From NCBI GenBank assembly GCA_021296235.1, contig JAGWAS010000027.1, positions 1 through 54,408 on the forward strand: 54,408 nucleotides of DNA, written 5' to 3'. The notes under the pieces are model-generated. The model searched no databases, was not told the DNA's origin, and saw nothing but the letters and a program-made list of their open reading frames with translations. Below are positions 39,550 to 47,187 of this stretch, in pieces (the stretch's first letter is position 1; each line of letters starts with the position of its first letter). The stretch comes from Paracoccaceae bacterium (lineage in GTDB: Bacteria; Pseudomonadota; Alphaproteobacteria; Rhodobacterales; Rhodobacteraceae). The position numbers and the translations under genes were made by a program.

Positions 39550-39811
39550 ACCTGTGAACCTTCTCCGGCATGACCAGTGGAAAGTTCGCTCCGGTTTCGG
39601 TGCTGACCAGGCTGGCGCACACCATCTGGTGGAAATGCTCCACCTTCCCGCACCGCTTGTTGCGCACGCAGCAGTTGGTGCAATGGACCGACACCGACTT
39701 GAAGAACTCGGTGCCGTCGATCGACGGCATCCCCTCAAGCCCCTTGCCCCGCCGAGGTGACAGCGGAACCGCAATCCTCGGGGTCTGGTCATTGTCGCTG
39801 CTCGACATTTG
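39550..39811 (-). pseudogene. Transposase remnant (DDE type, ISNCY-like)
   Basis: Within a 198-codon minus-strand frame, residues read IDGTEFFKSVSVHCTNCCVR, NKRCGKVEHFHQM and FPLVMPE. This follows the pattern DGTxYFSS-x-IHCxNCCVKxHRxGTxxYYHQM-x-LPLxPE that I know from a family of insertion-sequence transposases. The first catalytic Asp region is kept, but both N-terminal dimerisation and C-terminal parts (usual QDGxxKxDCE onwards) are missing or unrecognisable. No terminal repeats were found. It borders the island starting at ~40380. Confidence 0.65.
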
Positions 39812-39889
39812 TTGTCGTTGTTGCCACCACAATGCCACAAACCGGACCAAAAGTTTAGGAAAACCCTTCAGCGGGCAGGACTTTCTCAC

Positions 39890-40525
39890 GCTATTTTTTG
39901 TGTCCGATGCGCGGCAGGTTTCGGCTGGAAGCCTGGCCTTTCGGCGGATTTCTACCGATTTCGGATCTTTCTGGTGGATTGCAGCTCTGACCGAACAACC
40001 GGCGGTGCAGCTTTGCCGCCCGGAATGCGGTCGGATGTCGAACCGAAAATGGACCGGTGTTCGGCCGGGCTAAAGAACTGCCCTGAAGGTGTCCTGCCGG
40101 TTTAGTTCAAAATGGCGCATCGCTTCCGCAACCTTCCCATCGCCCCGTTCGAGGATCGCCGCAAGAGCAATGCAGTTGCAAAGGGCGTTGTTGGCCGGCG
40201 CATTGCCATTCCGGGAAAGGCAGGCATCTTCGGCGCGGCGGGCGATGACTTCGGTCAGGTGGAAGTCCGGCGGCGGCGTGGAAAATATGTCCGATCCGCT
40301 GTCCATGGTGCTGTGGATTACGCATCCGGGGATGGAAAGCCAGCGAAAGAACGAAGCTGCTGAAGAAAAAGGCATTCCGAAGGGGCAATTCAGCGTGGGA
40401 TCGCACTGCGTTGGAACGTCTGGACCTTGAAATAATGGCTCACGTCGTCCACTAGGATATCATGAGTCCCTTCGCAATAGTCCTGGTTCCGACATCGTCA
40501 CGCTACATCAGCGATCCCCCGCTTC
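39890..40525. other. Region between the transposase remnant and the helicase gene
   Basis: A 101-codon minus-strand frame (40070-40375) reads protein-like sequence (FHLTEVIARRAEDACLSRNG, LERGDGKVAEAMRHFEL) but matches nothing I know and lacks a start signal; it may be another fragment. TTGAAA at 40427 and TAGGAT at 40453 with 20 bases between them are a poor promoter candidate for the helicase operon. The left edge of the GC-rich island probably falls between 40380 and 40526. Confidence 0.35.
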
Positions 40526-43500
40526 ATGCATGAACTGATTCGCACCGCAACCGCCGAGCTTGCCGCCTTTCTCGCGGATCACTTACCCGTCCTCGGAGAA
40601 GATTGGTGGGAAACGCATGTCGCCAACCGCCTGAGCTTCCAGCAGCAGCGCACCGTGGAGGAACGCGGGCTCACCAAGCTGGAGCAACTGGATTTCGCCG
40701 CTCTGCTGCGAATCCTCGACCAGAATTGGTACGAGCTCTCCCAGGCGCTGAACCTGCCGCGCGAGGGGCGCACCTGGGTCAGGGAACTGCAATCCGTGCG
40801 CAATCGATGGGCGCACCTGCCGGCGGCGCCGGTTCCTGCCGAGGACCTGTACCGCGATGCCGACACCCTGGCCCGCGTTCTGGACATGCTTGGTGCCGCG
40901 CCGGCGTCAGTCGAGGCGGCAGAATCGGCGAAGCGTCACGCCCTTTCTGACTTGGCTGTGCCGTCCGACGCGCCCCCGAATTCCAAGCCCGATCCAGCGA
41001 ATAACGTCCCGCCAACCGCACCGTCAGACGGCCCCACAATCCCCGCCGTCCCTACACACACCGCAACGACGATGTTCGAGGTCGGCGATCTCGTGGCTTT
41101 GCGCTCCGACCCGGACACCGTAGTGCCGATCATCGGCGTCACGGCTAGCACCGCCGAGACCCGATACCAGGTGTTCCAGGACAACCGTCAGGCCGCCTAC
41201 TACGAGAGCCAGCTCTTGCCCCTCGAGCCCGCCGACGAATCCTCCCTACTCAGCGCCGCCGACCTGCGCGCCCATCTGACCAGCCTGCATCTGCTCTCAC
41301 CGTCAACCGCCAACCTGTATTCGCTGCGGTCCGGACGCGTTCACTTCGTGCCTTATCAGTATCGCCCCGTTGTGAGATTGATCCGTGCCGACCGGCCGCG
41401 CCTGTTGATCGCGGACGAGGTGGGCGTGGGGAAGACGATCGAGGCCGGACTGATCATCAAGGAGCTGCGGGCCCGGACGAACATCTCTTCGGTTCTGGTC
41501 ATCTGTCCAAAGGCGCTCGTGACCGAGCGCAAGTGGTTCGTGGAGATGAAGCGTTTCGACGAGCACTTCGAGGCGCTCGACGGTCGGACGCTCCGTCACT
41601 GTCTGCGGGAAACGAACCTGGAAGGCGAATGGCCCGACCGCTATGCTAGGGCGATCATCCCGTTCTCCCTGTTCGATTCGGACCTGCTATTCGGCAAGGA
41701 GGGTAGAGTGTCTCGGGCCAGCGAAGGGCTTCTCGGCCTCGATCCTCCGCCCAGGTTTGATCTCGTGATCGTCGACGAGGCGCACCACATCCGCAACGCG
41801 GACACCTTTCTCCATCAGGCGGTACGCTATTTCTGCGACAACGCCCAAGCTGCAGTCTTTCTCACCGCCACTCCGGTGCAACTCGGCAGCCAGGATCTCT
41901 TCACCTTGCTGAACGTTCTGCGGCCGGATCTCGTCATCGACCGCCCGAGTTTCGAGCAGATGGCTGCGCCCAACGGGTTCATCAACGCAGCCGTGGGCCA
42001 TTGCCGCGCCGGAGTGGATCACTGGCAGGTCGAAGCCCGCGCGTGCCTGGGCCATGCCGCACAGACCGAGTGGGGTCGCCTTTTCCTGCGAGAATCGCCG
42101 GCGTTCCAGGACATCTACGATCGGCTGGCGGAGGAGCATATCGACGACGCCAGCCGCATCCGCATTATCCGGTCGCTGGAGGAGCTCTATACCTTCAGCC
42201 CGATGATCAACCGCACGCGCCGCCGGGATATTGGGGAATTCACGAGCCGCCGGCCGGAAACGCTGACGGTCGAATTCACGCCCGATCAGCGCCGTTTGCA
42301 TGACGACCTGCTCGACGTCGTGAGCCGCATCTTGGCGCACGCCCACGGCAAGCAGAACGTCAAATTCATGATGACCACGATCCGTCGGCAGGCGGCGAGT
42401 TGCCTCTACGGCCTCGCCCCCCTGTTGCGCGATATGCTCGCCGGAAAGCTGGACAGCCTCGAAGAGATGGATGGAACCGACGGTGAACCTCCTGTTGATG
42501 CCGCCTTCCTTGCCGACATCCAGGCCGATATCGAGGCGCTCTTGGAGAGGGCCGACGATCTCGATCCCCTCGACCCCAAGGTGCAGGCCTTCGTCAGCGT
42601 CCTGCGAGACAAGGACCGAATGGCCAACAACAAGGCGCTGGTCTTCAGCACCTTCCGGCACACGCTCGCCTATATCGAGAAACACGTCGCGGACGCAGGA
42701 TTACGCTATGGCCTCGTGCACGGGGGCGTTCAGGACAACCAGCGTGCCGACCAGCGCCGCCGGCTCGCCTTGTCGAAGGATGACCCGGAGGCGCTGGACG
42801 TTCTGCTGTCCTCCGAAGTCGGCGGCGAGGGCCTCGACTTCCAGTTCTGCGACCTGCTGGTCAACTACGACCTGCCGTGGAACCCCATGCGCATCGACCG
42901 CTACGGCCAGCGGAGCGAGAACGTCGCAATCGTCAACCTGGTTACGCCCGGCACGGTCGACGCGGACATCTACGAACGCTGCCTGATGCGTATCGGCGTG
43001 TTCCATCACGCGGTCGGCGGCAGCGAAGAGATTCTCGGCGATATCACGCGGGAGATCCACAACATCGCCGACAGCTTCGCGCTGACGCCGGAACAGCGTG
43101 CTGAGCGCCTGCAGCAGCTCGCCGACAACAAGATCCGCCAGGTTCAGGAAGAAACCGCGCTTGAAGAGAAGCAGGCCGAGCTGTTCGGCCTGACGGTTCC
43201 CAACCAGTCCTGGCGTGAGGAGATCGCGGAGGCCAAGAGCTTCTGGCTGTCAGCGGAGGCGCTGCAAAGATGCGTTGCCGCCTATCTGTCGGGCGTGGCT
43301 GAGACCGACGGCGATTTTCTGCTCGGCGACAAACCCCTTAAGACTCTGCGTCTCGGCCAGAAGATCCGGGCCAGGCTGCTCGGCGACTTCCGCAGCCAGC
43401 CGCGATCCACCGATCCGGTCGCCCGGCAATGGGAAAAGTGGCTCAGGGGCACCGACCCGTTGCTGCCGGTCACCTTCGAACAGGAAACCGCTGCCGCGGA

Positions 43501-44101
43501 GCCGAAGGCCGTCTATCTCAACGTCCTGCATCCCTTGGTCAGGCAGGCGGCACGGCACCTGGAACGCGCCCAAGCGGTGCAGGTAAGTCTGATCGCCTCA
43601 AGCGAGGCTGTCCCACCGGGCGAATATCCGTTCGCCCTCTACCAGTGGCGCAATGTCGGCATTCGCTCCGATGACACGCTGGTGGCCGTCTCCTCGGACC
43701 CCGAGCTGGACAGCGCGGTGATGTCCCTCTTGGAAGTCGCAGCCGACGCTCCCTGCGGCACCCCACCCGACGAAGCCGCGATCGAACGGCTCGACAATCG
43801 GCACCACGGCGAATGGCGCGCTGCACGCGCAAACCATATGGCGGAGAACCGGGAACTCGTGCAACACCGGCGGCAAAGCCTGAGCACCAGCCACGGGGCC
43901 CGATGCAAGCTGTTGGAGGACCAGATCGGAACCGCGACGAACGACAAGATTCGCCAGATGAAGGAAGGTGAATTGGCGCGCGCCAACTATGACTATGAGC
44001 ACCGGGTCGCCGAGCTGGAGAGGCTGGCGGAAAGCGCCGACATCCACGCCACCTTGATCGTCGAAGGCATGCTTCGTGTCACGCGGGACGACGTGGCGTG
44101 A
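40526..44101 (+). CDS. Swt1-like HEPN domain fused to SNF2/RapA-type helicase
   Basis: A 1191-residue protein. Residues 1-~120 form a helical Swt1-like HEPN domain with the motif RNRWAH at 92-97, the RNxxxH type used by HEPN ribonucleases. A Pro-rich linker (~135-175) leads to a small domain (FEVGDLVALRSDPDTVVP). The helicase follows: Walker A ADEVGVGKT near 294-305, DEAHH near 415-420, TATP near 448, and helicase C with LVFSTFRHTLAYIEKH near 705 and SSEVGGEGLDFQFCDLLVNY near 760. Motif VI reads NPMRIDRYGQRSE, about seven residues shorter than the usual NPMRIEQRIGRIDRYGQ. A coiled C-terminus ends the protein. It is GC-richer than its neighbours. The stop overlaps the next gene by GTGA. Confidence 0.85.
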   Translation: MHELIRTATAELAAFLADHLPVLGEDWWETHVANRLSFQQQRTVEERGLTKLEQLDFAALLRILDQNWYELSQALNLPREGRTWVRELQSVRNRWAHLPAAPVPAEDLYRDADTLARVLDMLGAAPASVEAAESAKRHALSDLAVPSDAPPNSKPDPANNVPPTAPSDGPTIPAVPTHTATTMFEVGDLVALRSDPDTVVPIIGVTASTAETRYQVFQDNRQAAYYESQLLPLEPADESSLLSAADLRAHLTSLHLLSPSTANLYSLRSGRVHFVPYQYRPVVRLIRADRPRLLIADEVGVGKTIEAGLIIKELRARTNISSVLVICPKALVTERKWFVEMKRFDEHFEALDGRTLRHCLRETNLEGEWPDRYARAIIPFSLFDSDLLFGKEGRVSRASEGLLGLDPPPRFDLVIVDEAHHIRNADTFLHQAVRYFCDNAQAAVFLTATPVQLGSQDLFTLLNVLRPDLVIDRPSFEQMAAPNGFINAAVGHCRAGVDHWQVEARACLGHAAQTEWGRLFLRESPAFQDIYDRLAEEHIDDASRIRIIRSLEELYTFSPMINRTRRRDIGEFTSRRPETLTVEFTPDQRRLHDDLLDVVSRILAHAHGKQNVKFMMTTIRRQAASCLYGLAPLLRDMLAGKLDSLEEMDGTDGEPPVDAAFLADIQADIEALLERADDLDPLDPKVQAFVSVLRDKDRMANNKALVFSTFRHTLAYIEKHVADAGLRYGLVHGGVQDNQRADQRRRLALSKDDPEALDVLLSSEVGGEGLDFQFCDLLVNYDLPWNPMRIDRYGQRSENVAIVNLVTPGTVDADIYERCLMRIGVFHHAVGGSEEILGDITREIHNIADSFALTPEQRAERLQQLADNKIRQVQEETALEEKQAELFGLTVPNQSWREEIAEAKSFWLSAEALQRCVAAYLSGVAETDGDFLLGDKPLKTLRLGQKIRARLLGDFRSQPRSTDPVARQWEKWLRGTDPLLPVTFEQETAAAEPKAVYLNVLHPLVRQAARHLERAQAVQVSLIASSEAVPPGEYPFALYQWRNVGIRSDDTLVAVSSDPELDSAVMSLLEVAADAPCGTPPDEAAIERLDNRHHGEWRAARANHMAENRELVQHRRQSLSTSHGARCKLLEDQIGTATNDKIRQMKEGELARANYDYEHRVAELERLAESADIHATLIVEGMLRVTRDDVA

Positions 44102-47100
44102 GCGTCATTGAGCGGGTTCGCCAGGACCGCGGGGATCTTGCCCGCGTCCTGAAGAAGCATGCCGGCATCCGCAGGATCGTCGAAGACCTCTATCCGGATT
44201 CCGCGCATTTCATATACGAGCTGCTCCAGAACGCCGAGGACACAGGTGCGACCGAGGCCGCATTCGTCCTTACCGAGGACAGGCTCGTGTTCGAGCACAA
44301 CGGCCGCACGTTCGACGAAGCCGACATCCGGGCCATCACCGATATCGGGGAAGGAACAAAGGCGGAGGACGACGAGCAGATCGGCCGCTTCGGCATCGGC
44401 TTCAAGGCTGTGTTCGCCTACACGGAGACGCCGCGCATCTGGTCGCCGAGCTATGCCTTCGAGATTTCCGAAATGGTGCTCCCGTCGGAGATTCCATCGG
44501 ACCCCAGCCTGGGCGATCGCACGCGGTTCGAATTCCCGTTCAACTCTGGAAAGAGGCCACAAGGCCAAGCCTTCTCTGAGGTGCAGGACGGCCTGGAAGA
44601 GATTTCCGACAACACGTTGCTGTTCCTCTCCAACATCGAAGAGATCCAGTGGCGGATCGACCGCGGTCGGGAAGGCCGGCTGCTCCGAATACTGCATACG
44701 GATCACCACATCGAGATTCTGCGGGAGATCGACGGAAGGCCAACCGAAAGTGCAAATTTCCTCCGCTTCACTGAACCGGTCGACGGATTGGAGCGCCAGC
44801 ACGCTGCCGTCGCCTTCGAACTCGAGCCGGTGTCCGGGAACACCCCGTCAATCGGGCTCACCCCCTTCGCAAAGAAGTTTCGGATTGCTCACTCGGGACG
44901 TGGATGCGTCGCGGTCTATTTCACGGCAGCGAAGGAATCTTCGAATCTGCGCTTCCATCTCCACGCGCCATTCGTCCCGGAACTTAGCCGCTCCAGCATC
45001 AAGGACACGCCGGCGAACGCCCCGCTCTTCGCACAACTCGCCGGGCTCGCGGCTGAATCGCTGTCGTCAATTCGCGATCTCGGCCTGCTCGACCGGGAGT
45101 TTCTCGCCGTCTTGCCGAACAGCCAGGATGAAATCCCCGCACAGTACGTGCCCATCCGCGACGCCATCGTCGACGCAATGAACGAACGCGCGCTTACTCC
45201 GAAGCACGCGGGCGGCCATGCCCCGGCCAGCCGGTTGCTGCAGGCGGAGGCCGGATTGAAGGACCTGCTTGATTGCGACGACATTCACTTCCTAGTCGAC
45301 GCCGACGGCGACCCGCGCGACTGGGCGATTGCCGCGACGCAGAGGAACAGCCGTGTCGACCGCTTCCTGCGCGGTCTCAATATCGAGCAATGGGGTGTCG
45401 AACAGTTCGTGGAGGCACTGGACGAGCGTTTCTCCAACAAACGCCGATTCAGTTATCCGACCTACACCTGGAAGCAGGAACCCGACGGGCCGTTTCTCGA
45501 CTGGATGCGCCGGAAACCGGCAGAGTGGCACCGGGCACTGTATGCCCTTTTTCGTCAAGAGCTGGGAGACGAGCTGAAACTCTTCGACCAAATCTGCATC
45601 GTCCGGCTCTCCGACGGCGAGTATGGGACTGGCAACGAATCCTACTTCCCGACCCCTGAAACCCGCGAAGACCCCATCCATCCCCGCGTCGCAGAAGACA
45701 CTTATGCAGGCGGAGGGACCAGAGAAGAGCAGACACGCGCCAGGGCATTCCTGGAAGGCATCGGCGTCCGCGATGTAGGAGAGTTCCAGCAGGTAGAGGC
45801 CATCCTCGAACGGAGATACGCCGACCTCGCCAGCGTCCCGCCGTGGAAGACCCATGAATCCGACCTGAGGCGTTTCATTGCGCTCGTCGAAGAGGATAGG
45901 AACGCTACCGCTCTCTTCGAGGACTACTTCATATTGCACCGAGCCGACAGTCTCTGGTCCAAGCCCGGCGGCCTCTACCTCGACACGCCCTATCTCGAAA
46001 CCGGATTGGGAGCCTACTATGGACCCCTCGGTTCCGAAGCGAGCCGCGCGGCCTTGTCCGCGAAATACCTGACCTTCGACATGCTGGCGCAACTTGTCCC
46101 ATTCGCCCGGATGTGCGGCGTAGCCGACCGCCTCGAAATCGCGACGGTTAGTTGCACCGACAACCCCAAAAGGGCATACCTGCTTAGCGCTCCGGGCGCA
46201 GTTCTGACGCAAACTGGGATTGACTGCGACTTCACCGTTCCCGGGCTCGACGCCTTGTTCAAAAGACCGACCAGTGCGCTTTCCCGTCTTGTCTGGAATA
46301 CCCTTTCCGGCCGATCACAAGACAAGAGCATTCTGATTGCCACCTTTCAATACAACCAATCGAACGACCCCCGCTCCGCCGAATCGCTGCTCGTTCACCA
46401 GTTGCGCAACACTGCCTGGGTCCCTCAGCGGGAGGGCGAATTCGTTCGCCCCGCGGAGGCCCTGAAAGACCTGCTGCCAGACGGCTTCCCGTTCGATCCC
46501 GGCTGGGCCTGGCTCGCCGCCATCCGCTTTGGTGCCGAAACCAAAGGGCGCGATGAACAACTTCGCAGAAATCAGGCAATCGCCGCCGAACTCGGATTTC
46601 CAGACGAGGCGGCGCTCATCCACGGAATGCAATTTGCGAAATTGCCTCTCGATACCAGACAAAAGATCCTTGCGGAGCACCAGAGCCCGGTCGACCTGCC
46701 GATCCACAAGCCCAGAAACCCCGACCGAAGGGCCGCGGCAGTTCGGGATAATGCTCGGAAAGCGCCTAAGCGCAGAACCGAACCGCGTGAACGGTCCGTG
46801 TCCGTTGACCGCGACAAGACCAAGAGAGAACAATCAGATCCCTATCTGCGGCAACTCTATACCAACCCCGACGGCGCAACCATCTGCCAAGCGTGCAAAG
46901 ATCGCCTCCCCTTCAGGCTTGCCGATAGAACCTACTTCTTCGAGGCGGTGGAGTTTCTCCAGGGCCTGGAGCGGCACCACTATCAGAACTACCTCGCCTT
47001 ATGCCCGAATCATGCGGCGATGTTCATGCACGCCAATGCCTCGAAAGACGATATGAAGGACGTGTTTCTCGCCTTGGATGGCAACGAACTGACGTTAACA

Positions 47101-47187
47101 CTCGCCGACCAACCGGTGACCATCTATTTCACCGACACGCATATCGCAGATCTCCGCGTCGTGATCGACGTCGCCGACCAAGACTAA
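44098..47187 (+). CDS. Sacsin-type GHKL/HSP90-like ATPase with C-terminal zinc-ribbon/HNH-like domain
   Basis: 1029 residues from a GTG at 44098 overlapping the helicase stop. The N-terminal sacsin-like ATPase domain has the N-box ELLQNAEDTG at 41-50, EHNGRTFDEADIRAITDIGE at 66-85 and the lid motif IGRFGIGFKAVF at 95-106. A long middle region (~200-870) is unassigned. After a basic linker, residues ~930-985 read ICQACKDRLPF, ...ERHHYQNYLALCPNHAAMF, a CxxC...CPxH pattern like HNH/zinc-ribbon folds, though the usual first catalytic His is not evident (FFEAVEF). It probably acts with the helicase as one system. Confidence 0.85.
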   Translation: MSVIERVRQDRGDLARVLKKHAGIRRIVEDLYPDSAHFIYELLQNAEDTGATEAAFVLTEDRLVFEHNGRTFDEADIRAITDIGEGTKAEDDEQIGRFGIGFKAVFAYTETPRIWSPSYAFEISEMVLPSEIPSDPSLGDRTRFEFPFNSGKRPQGQAFSEVQDGLEEISDNTLLFLSNIEEIQWRIDRGREGRLLRILHTDHHIEILREIDGRPTESANFLRFTEPVDGLERQHAAVAFELEPVSGNTPSIGLTPFAKKFRIAHSGRGCVAVYFTAAKESSNLRFHLHAPFVPELSRSSIKDTPANAPLFAQLAGLAAESLSSIRDLGLLDREFLAVLPNSQDEIPAQYVPIRDAIVDAMNERALTPKHAGGHAPASRLLQAEAGLKDLLDCDDIHFLVDADGDPRDWAIAATQRNSRVDRFLRGLNIEQWGVEQFVEALDERFSNKRRFSYPTYTWKQEPDGPFLDWMRRKPAEWHRALYALFRQELGDELKLFDQICIVRLSDGEYGTGNESYFPTPETREDPIHPRVAEDTYAGGGTREEQTRARAFLEGIGVRDVGEFQQVEAILERRYADLASVPPWKTHESDLRRFIALVEEDRNATALFEDYFILHRADSLWSKPGGLYLDTPYLETGLGAYYGPLGSEASRAALSAKYLTFDMLAQLVPFARMCGVADRLEIATVSCTDNPKRAYLLSAPGAVLTQTGIDCDFTVPGLDALFKRPTSALSRLVWNTLSGRSQDKSILIATFQYNQSNDPRSAESLLVHQLRNTAWVPQREGEFVRPAEALKDLLPDGFPFDPGWAWLAAIRFGAETKGRDEQLRRNQAIAAELGFPDEAALIHGMQFAKLPLDTRQKILAEHQSPVDLPIHKPRNPDRRAAAVRDNARKAPKRRTEPRERSVSVDRDKTKREQSDPYLRQLYTNPDGATICQACKDRLPFRLADRTYFFEAVEFLQGLERHHYQNYLALCPNHAAMFMHANASKDDMKDVFLALDGNELTLTLADQPVTIYFTDTHIADLRVVIDVADQD

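Follow-up and report, generated by a model that had tools for sequence, protein, structure and literature searches.

Overlapping genes for a HEPN-SNF2 helicase and a sacsin-type ATPase form a candidate mobile anti-phage system

We examined a 54,408-nucleotide stretch of DNA from a Paracoccaceae bacterium (contig JAGWAS010000027.1 of assembly GCA_021296235.1; hereafter the window), in which two adjacent genes, here designated A and B, encode a helicase fused to a HEPN domain and a sacsin-type ATPase, respectively. An earlier note on this DNA, made by a model from the sequence alone, had proposed that the two genes constitute a defence system. Both open reading frames (ORFs) lie at the coordinates given in that note, and the four-base overlap between them was confirmed. 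The features of the locus are listed below.

40526..44101, + strand: gene A, encoding a protein of 1191 residues with a Swt1-type HEPN domain and a RapA/DrmD-like SNF2 helicase (ORF and domain profiles)
40559..40888, + strand: HEPN_Swt1 domain, A residues 12-121 (Pfam)
40799-40816, + strand: R92-x4-H97 motif of the A HEPN domain (motif census)
41399..41965, + strand: SNF2 N-terminal helicase lobe, A residues 292-480 (Pfam, motif census)
42578..42916, + strand: Helicase_C lobe, A residues 685-797, with a gap in motif VI near residue 788 (Pfam, alignments)
44098..44101, + strand: four-base overlap of the end of A with the start of B (ORF coordinates)
44098..47187, + strand: gene B, encoding a sacsin-type GHKL ATPase of 1029 residues with an HNH-like tail, GTG start
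44134..45087, + strand: GHKL ATPase and transducer-like region, about B residues 13-330 (fold like Hsp90 and GyrB)
B residues 24-117, + strand: match to the sacsin hidden Markov model (HMM)
46831..47184, + strand: HNH-like tail, B residues 912-1029, with likely zinc ligands C930, C933, C969 and H972 and an invariant H1015
39551..40400, no strand: mosaic of genome repeats 5' of A (mobile-element debris or other repeats)

The N-terminus of protein A matches HEPN_Swt1 (PF18731) at 59.8 bits, against a cut-off of 27.5, and is followed by SNF2-rel_dom and Helicase_C domains that both score above the Pfam cut-offs, with RapA as the closest match in the PDB (E 1.8e-26). The description in the earlier note of a Swt1-like HEPN domain with an intact motif on an SNF2/RapA-type helicase is therefore borne out. 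Among HEPN-bearing sequences, the window included, the motif is conserved at R92 (52/53), N93 (53/53) and H97 (52/53), and the P-loop GKT and the DEAH box are found in all 80 A sequences that have letters at these positions, again including the window. The HEPN domain of A, whose active-site motif is intact, is a putative RNase; no other HEPN family was reported by Pfam in A or B at E <= 0.1. A PD-(D/E)XK nuclease hidden in the tail of A was also looked for and was dropped as a candidate, as no lysine in this region reaches 90 percent conservation.

The front of protein B matches the SACS family (PF25794; 75.2 bits, cut-off 32.8), the NCBIfam sacsin ATP-binding domain (97.6 bits, cut-off 50) and, in the PDB, sacsin SR1 (E 7.9e-9); its fold is like that of Hsp90 and GyrB, and the GHKL motifs are intact. 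The tail, which the earlier note had correctly placed behind a sacsin-type ATPase as a CxxC...CPxH domain, matches the HNH domain of EcoKMcrA, and has a predicted HNH-like fold with zinc cysteines. It differs from the HNH domains of EcoKMcrA and TagI in that none of 48 aligned tails carries histidine at the HNH positions (B residues 951, 952, 973 and 977) in an alignment, A6, from which four of 51 listed loci (L023, L036, L047 and L065) are omitted. In a wider alignment of 64 rows, the single histidine at an HNH position is residue 977 in L054, while zinc ligands are lost in L023 and L036 (C933, C969 and C/H972) and in L042 (C933). We predict that, rather than a simple zinc domain, the tail is an HNH-like domain without the catalytic histidines. 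Although most tail zinc ligands are gone in L023 and L036, A and B stay paired there. The same HNH-like domain occurs at residues 581-721 of an 850-residue protein on a Proteus plasmid (L106:5186-7735), adjoining a restriction gene set, and in some Bacillota and one viral contig (L047, L049, L058 and L129) B reaches 1241-1593 residues and has a second sacsin-type ATPase match.

Loci encoding A-like proteins were found in genome contigs from an alignment of 23 A proteins (A1), with B unused, and 80 A loci were kept among at least 158 relatives found. Where at least 1,000 nt are available past A, a same-strand B match lies within 700 nt downstream in 64 of 67 loci, and this match spans nearly the whole B profile in 58/64. 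The loci with B in range belong to 17 named phyla, one of them archaeal, the Chloroflexota case consisting of the tail alone; conservation of the pair in distant genomes had been named as a check in the earlier note. Among the three loci without B in range, L048 has a broken A, with pieces of B detected by tblastn, L070 has a truncated A followed by another ORF, and the third is L055. The exact four-base overlap recurs at 26 of the 67 junctions measured, which comprise all loci with B in range. When the ORFs of 83 loci (L003, L004, L006-L085 and L107) were clustered, the A cluster was represented in 82 and the B cluster in 70, any other cluster occurring in at most four. The distances between A proteins correlate with those between their B partners (r 0.59, 61 loci), a value reached in none of 2000 permutations. 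Judged from these genome sequences, the pairing of A with B is near-obligate.

Several loci show variant arrangements. The order of the genes is reversed in L055, where B precedes A, and in L007 (13594-18851) the last 95 or so residues of B sit about 2.2 kb downstream, as though B had been interrupted by an insertion. In place of B, L079 (13105-14349) has an ORF of 414 residues with an HNH-like tail and a stretch that, by eye, presumably resembles ribosomal protein S16. An ORF of 202-215 residues follows A in L035 (8901-9506) and L026 (13540-14187); in L035 it lies between A and B and has no Pfam match.

The association was also approached from B, by searching 385 genomes of the class and 398 of the phylum (the source genome being counted in both) and inspecting the stretches around twelve matches. 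All four complete tailed B proteins besides that of the window (L124, L125, L239 and L242) adjoin A; L125 and L242 are contigs of L022 and L023, so that only L124 and L239 add new cases. In contrast, A was found in none of the inspected stretches around four tail-less B-like proteins (L122, L123, L240 and L241). Because of this difference, 4/4 against 0/4, the presence of the B tail and that of A coincide in this small sample. At L244, B is cut by the contig end and A is present; L228 is too short to judge, and at L245 the match is weak and confined to the tail. No A lies within about 1.5 kb of another six weak B matches (L115-L119 and L121). At L243 (570-2492), a HEPN domain, the start of the helicase and the B tail share a single ORF of 641 residues, which looks like the outcome of an internal deletion across A and B.

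The HEPN domain is the variable part of the system. It was detected in 52 of 80 A loci and is present on all four IMG/VR contigs that carry A and B; among the 28 loci in which it was not detected are L036 and L042, both of which start at a contig edge. B is kept in 24 of the 26 loci that have room for it and no detected HEPN domain (L036 and L042, where the start of A is unseen, are among the 24). On a tree of 74 helicase cores, from which L036 and L042 were left out, the HEPN label changes nine times, with at least seven changes forced by well supported branches; including these two loci gives 11 changes, nine of them forced. The deep part of the tree is unsure, given some long terminal branches, two of which meet. 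HEPN distances follow helicase distances closely (r 0.92, 39 loci; 0/2000 permutations as high), and more closely than B distances do (r 0.59). Because of this close correspondence and the repeated label changes, we read the HEPN domain as having been inherited with the helicase and then lost repeatedly. Since HEPN is found in 52/80 loci and has changed state at least seven times, the SNF2-GHKL pair looks like the core of the system and HEPN like a removable arm. Replacement of HEPN by another N-terminal effector was considered and rejected, none of the upstream ORFs in HEPN-less loci being HEPN-like by eye. A Pfam scan of five ORFs taken from related and neighbouring loci (L046, L003, L035, L018 and L084) identified macro and helicase domains in L046 and PD-(D/E)XK and helicase domains in L018. 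Some HEPN-less loci may contain a diverged HEPN domain, for example L084 and L085, which have long N-terminal stretches without a match.

The occurrence of the pair is patchy. A B-type match was found in 10/385 class genomes and 12/398 phylum genomes, and in none of three genomes of the same genus. Both genes were identified by HMM on plasmids of Ensifer, Rhizobium and the archaeon Methanomethylovorans, and four IMG/VR contigs carry A and B. On the basis of this distribution, with plasmid and viral-contig copies, the pair is evidently mobile. Among 19 large flanking proteins from 12 loci, 10 match PADLOC models at E <= 1e-40, the matches coming from five loci: type III restriction in L011 and L019, type I restriction in L044, Hhe in L050, and PglX, PglZ and PDC-S68 in L054. 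The controls, 19 large proteins from antipodal stretches, came from the contigs of 20 loci, which do not include L046, a member of the flanking set; one control, a UvrD-type helicase, matches PADLOC at the same threshold. The pair comes after PglZ in the BREX-like gene sets of L054 (by HMM), L056 (by similarity) and L108 (by eye); the L108 record is labelled bacteriophage and its ORFs read like a bacterial defence island. Type I restriction genes stand beside the pair in L128 (by eye), and a RecB-like nuclease-helicase is near the pair in L003 (annotated as TM0106 type), L011, L018 and L069.

Taken together, we consider it likely, with a probability of roughly 0.6, that A and B are a mobile system against phages: invading DNA would be recognised by the two ATPases, which would then set the HEPN domain free to act as an RNase. 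The two-gene defence system put forward in the earlier note is well supported as a candidate by the pairing of the genes in 64/67 loci, the reverse search, the patchy occurrence and the defence-type neighbours at some loci. In the mechanism that we envisage, the SNF2 motor would move along DNA or strip protein off it and B, like GyrB and Hsp90, would form a dimer clamp whose closing is driven by ATP, motor and clamp acting jointly on invading DNA and the closure of B reporting the target. The HNH-like tail may bind nucleic acid or dock A, and the activated complex would let HEPN cut cellular or phage RNA, leading to dormancy or abortive infection. Because many loci have no detected HEPN domain, motor and clamp would be active by themselves, with HEPN as a backup suicide arm. 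Since pairs without HEPN also lack the HNH histidine set (in the same alignment rows) and the A tail shows no nuclease pattern, this core may act without cutting or may use a nuclease encoded elsewhere. Tentatively, the system might be a nuclease-free immune core, in which an SNF2 motor and an Hsp90/GyrB-type clamp would stop invaders by gripping their DNA and stripping it, the clamp using its dead HNH domain to read DNA or as a docking plug, and HEPN being a detachable suicide arm lost many times. If so, a motor combined with a chaperone-like clamp would be an immune principle extending from archaea to Bacillota. The anti-phage reading, if true, would describe a compact and widespread defence system of which PADLOC-DB 2.0.0 shows no more than pieces of other systems (DrmD-like and TmtA-like), and would tie the sacsin ATPase module to prokaryotic immunity. 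The natural series of loci with and without HEPN would reveal what a suicide RNase adds, and that an HNH-like domain is retained across phyla without catalytic histidines is of interest in itself.

A number of observations weigh against an anti-phage role or limit its evidence. No HEPN domain is detected in 26/80 loci with a visible A start, and the plasmid copies (L003, L004 and L107) likewise have none detected; for this reason HEPN cannot be the whole mechanism. B is partial in six of the 64 paired loci (split in L007, fragmentary in L032, L042, L045 and L049, and reduced to the tail in L079). The genes flanking the window pair look metabolic by eye, and 7 of the 12 loci scanned for neighbours have no PADLOC match. 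The comparison of 19 flanking with 19 control proteins was not blind, the proteins being chosen partly by size, and PADLOC family tallies are alike on both sides (146 for 77 flank proteins, 141 for 80 control proteins). These tallies were also tried as statistics for a restriction island and set aside as uninformative. Enrichment near known defence genes, which the earlier note had named as a check, is seen in the matches of large flanking proteins (10/19 against 1/19) and not in the family tallies.

The window copy raises a further difficulty, as its helicase does not have a complete motif VI. Seven residues of this motif, kept by relatives in an alignment of 81 proteins, are missing from the window protein; the gap, at about 42887-42900, is in frame and had been missed in the earlier note. 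Motif VI supplies arginine fingers in such helicases, and the window copy may therefore be inactive. The odds are about even that it is defunct, the gap stopping the helicase, with either the pair decaying here or the gap arising from an assembly error. The motif VI pattern is found in 79/81 A sequences, the exceptions being the window and L057, whose sequence is cut off by the contig edge, and the columns lost in the window are kept in at least 90 percent of the 23 rows of alignment A1. On the other hand, the gap preserves the reading frame, both ORFs are otherwise open and the motifs of B are kept. The source genome is a 3.16 Mb assembly of 42 contigs that is 91 percent complete (the window is contig C17). 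Relatives with intact motif VI exist.

Other roles for the pair can be envisaged. It might be an accessory of restriction-modification or BREX systems, supplying the main restriction machinery with a helicase and an RNase in reserve. This would account for its position beside type III (L011, L019), type I (L044, and L128 by eye), Hhe (L050) and BREX genes (L054, and L056 by similarity), and for BREX-related systems, HEPN fused to a core ATPase has been called a backup effector (PMC12839542). We nevertheless regard an accessory role as unlikely, since the partner system varies from locus to locus, no neighbour cluster occurs in more than four loci and inspection by eye showed no restriction gene next to the pair in the window. 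Quite improbable, in our view, is a toxin-antitoxin or element-maintenance module in which a HEPN toxin is restrained by B or by the helicase. The HEPN motif is intact, plasmid copies exist (though HEPN is undetected in those three), and HEPN domains are known toxins of toxin-antitoxin pairs, as described in PMC3710099. This is countered by the persistence of B in nearly all HEPN-less loci with room for it (24/26, again counting L036 and L042). Moreover, A and B are both large ATPases, which usual antitoxins do not resemble. We give still less credence to a stress or RNA polymerase recycling module, with a RapA-like helicase and an Hsp90-like chaperone working on stalled complexes: the best PDB matches of A are to RapA and the fold of B is like Hsp90 and GyrB, but the pair is patchy within the class and phylum and has no match in the three same-genus genomes, copies are found on plasmids and viral contigs, and defence genes adjoin some loci.

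For the anti-phage system that we favour, only partial kin were retrieved by the profile and PDB fold searches that the earlier note had suggested, namely DrmD-like A, a TmtA-like front of B, RapA and sacsin SR1. The best PADLOC model for A is DrmD of DISARM (E 3.5e-101), although its score of 272.4 bits falls far below the DrmD equivalog cut-off of 610; A also matches BrxHI/BrxHII of BREX (E 3.7e-46) and HmaA of Hma (E 1.1e-31). DrmD, BrxHII, HmaA and RapA are SNF2 helicases like A, which differs from them by its HEPN domain and its GHKL ATPase partner. TmtA, which we take to be Tiamat, matches the sacsin/GHKL N-terminal part of B (E 4.7e-54), the best stretch covering only 43-487 of 1486 profile positions, whereas B adds the HNH-like tail and the A partner. 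In Hhe, a PADLOC label, HEPN, helicase and nuclease are joined in one protein; A differs in that its helicase is of the SNF2 type and Pfam gave no MTES_1575 match (E <= 0.1), the MTES_1575/Vsr-type nuclease with HEPN presumably being a feature of Hhe.

A Swt1-like HEPN domain fused to an SWI2/SNF2 ATPase (WQE_15321) was listed in 2013, with the HEPN domain called active (PMC3710099). A has the same two domains in one protein, a likeness that rests on the description of that entry, which names no sacsin-type partner. Eukaryotic sacsin shares its SR1-type ATPase with B and, in the account given in PMC3710099, joins Hsp90-like and HEPN domains in one protein, its HEPN domain being described as derived from a prokaryotic toxin-antitoxin system. 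The earlier note had regarded the A-B pair as a split bacterial sacsin. This idea is rejected for the HEPN part and is unsupported because the HEPN type differs: that of A is the Swt1-type PF18731, no other HEPN family is detected, and 26/80 loci have no detected HEPN domain at all. The sacsin architecture, as set out in that source, also includes neither a helicase nor an HNH-like tail. The DUF499 BREX-related (Hma) systems, as described in PMC12839542, combine a RapA-type SNF2 helicase with an optional N-terminal HEPN fusion, as in A, and BrxHII is described there as having a RapA architecture with a degenerate nuclease-like domain. They differ from A-B in that HEPN sits on the DUF499 ATPase and a methyltransferase is present; the words sacsin, Hsp90 and HATPase are absent from the main text of that paper. 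No match describing the A-B pair was found in PADLOC 2.0.0, NCBIfam or Pfam, and titles and abstracts yielded no named system, an absence that is weak because subscription papers and bioRxiv were mostly outside the scope of the search. This agrees with the earlier note, whose author knew of no named system with exactly these two components. The HEPN-SNF2 fusion is already in print, whereas its pairing with a sacsin-type ATPase was not found in the literature searched; the pair is a likely defence system that combines known parts in a new way.

A occurs once in the source genome; one further match, at 26 percent identity, is weak and belongs to a different helicase. No restriction, PglX or PglZ genes were seen among the ORFs inspected by eye beside the window pair. 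Left-flank genes are syntenic in two of the three same-genus genomes, G405 (three genes) and G406 (two genes). A clean empty site could nevertheless not be defined, because none of the tested right-flank genes was found in the same-genus genomes examined for this purpose. Upstream of A, positions 39551-40400 are a patchwork of pieces that recur elsewhere in the same genome, which agrees in part with the transposase debris reported in the earlier note; three ORFs scanned within this region have no Pfam match, and a plasmid DNA search using it gave no match. As the earlier note had also remarked, the locus is GC-richer than its surroundings, the GC fraction being 0.598-0.640 in 1-kb intervals spanning 40 to 47 kb and 0.509-0.598 elsewhere.

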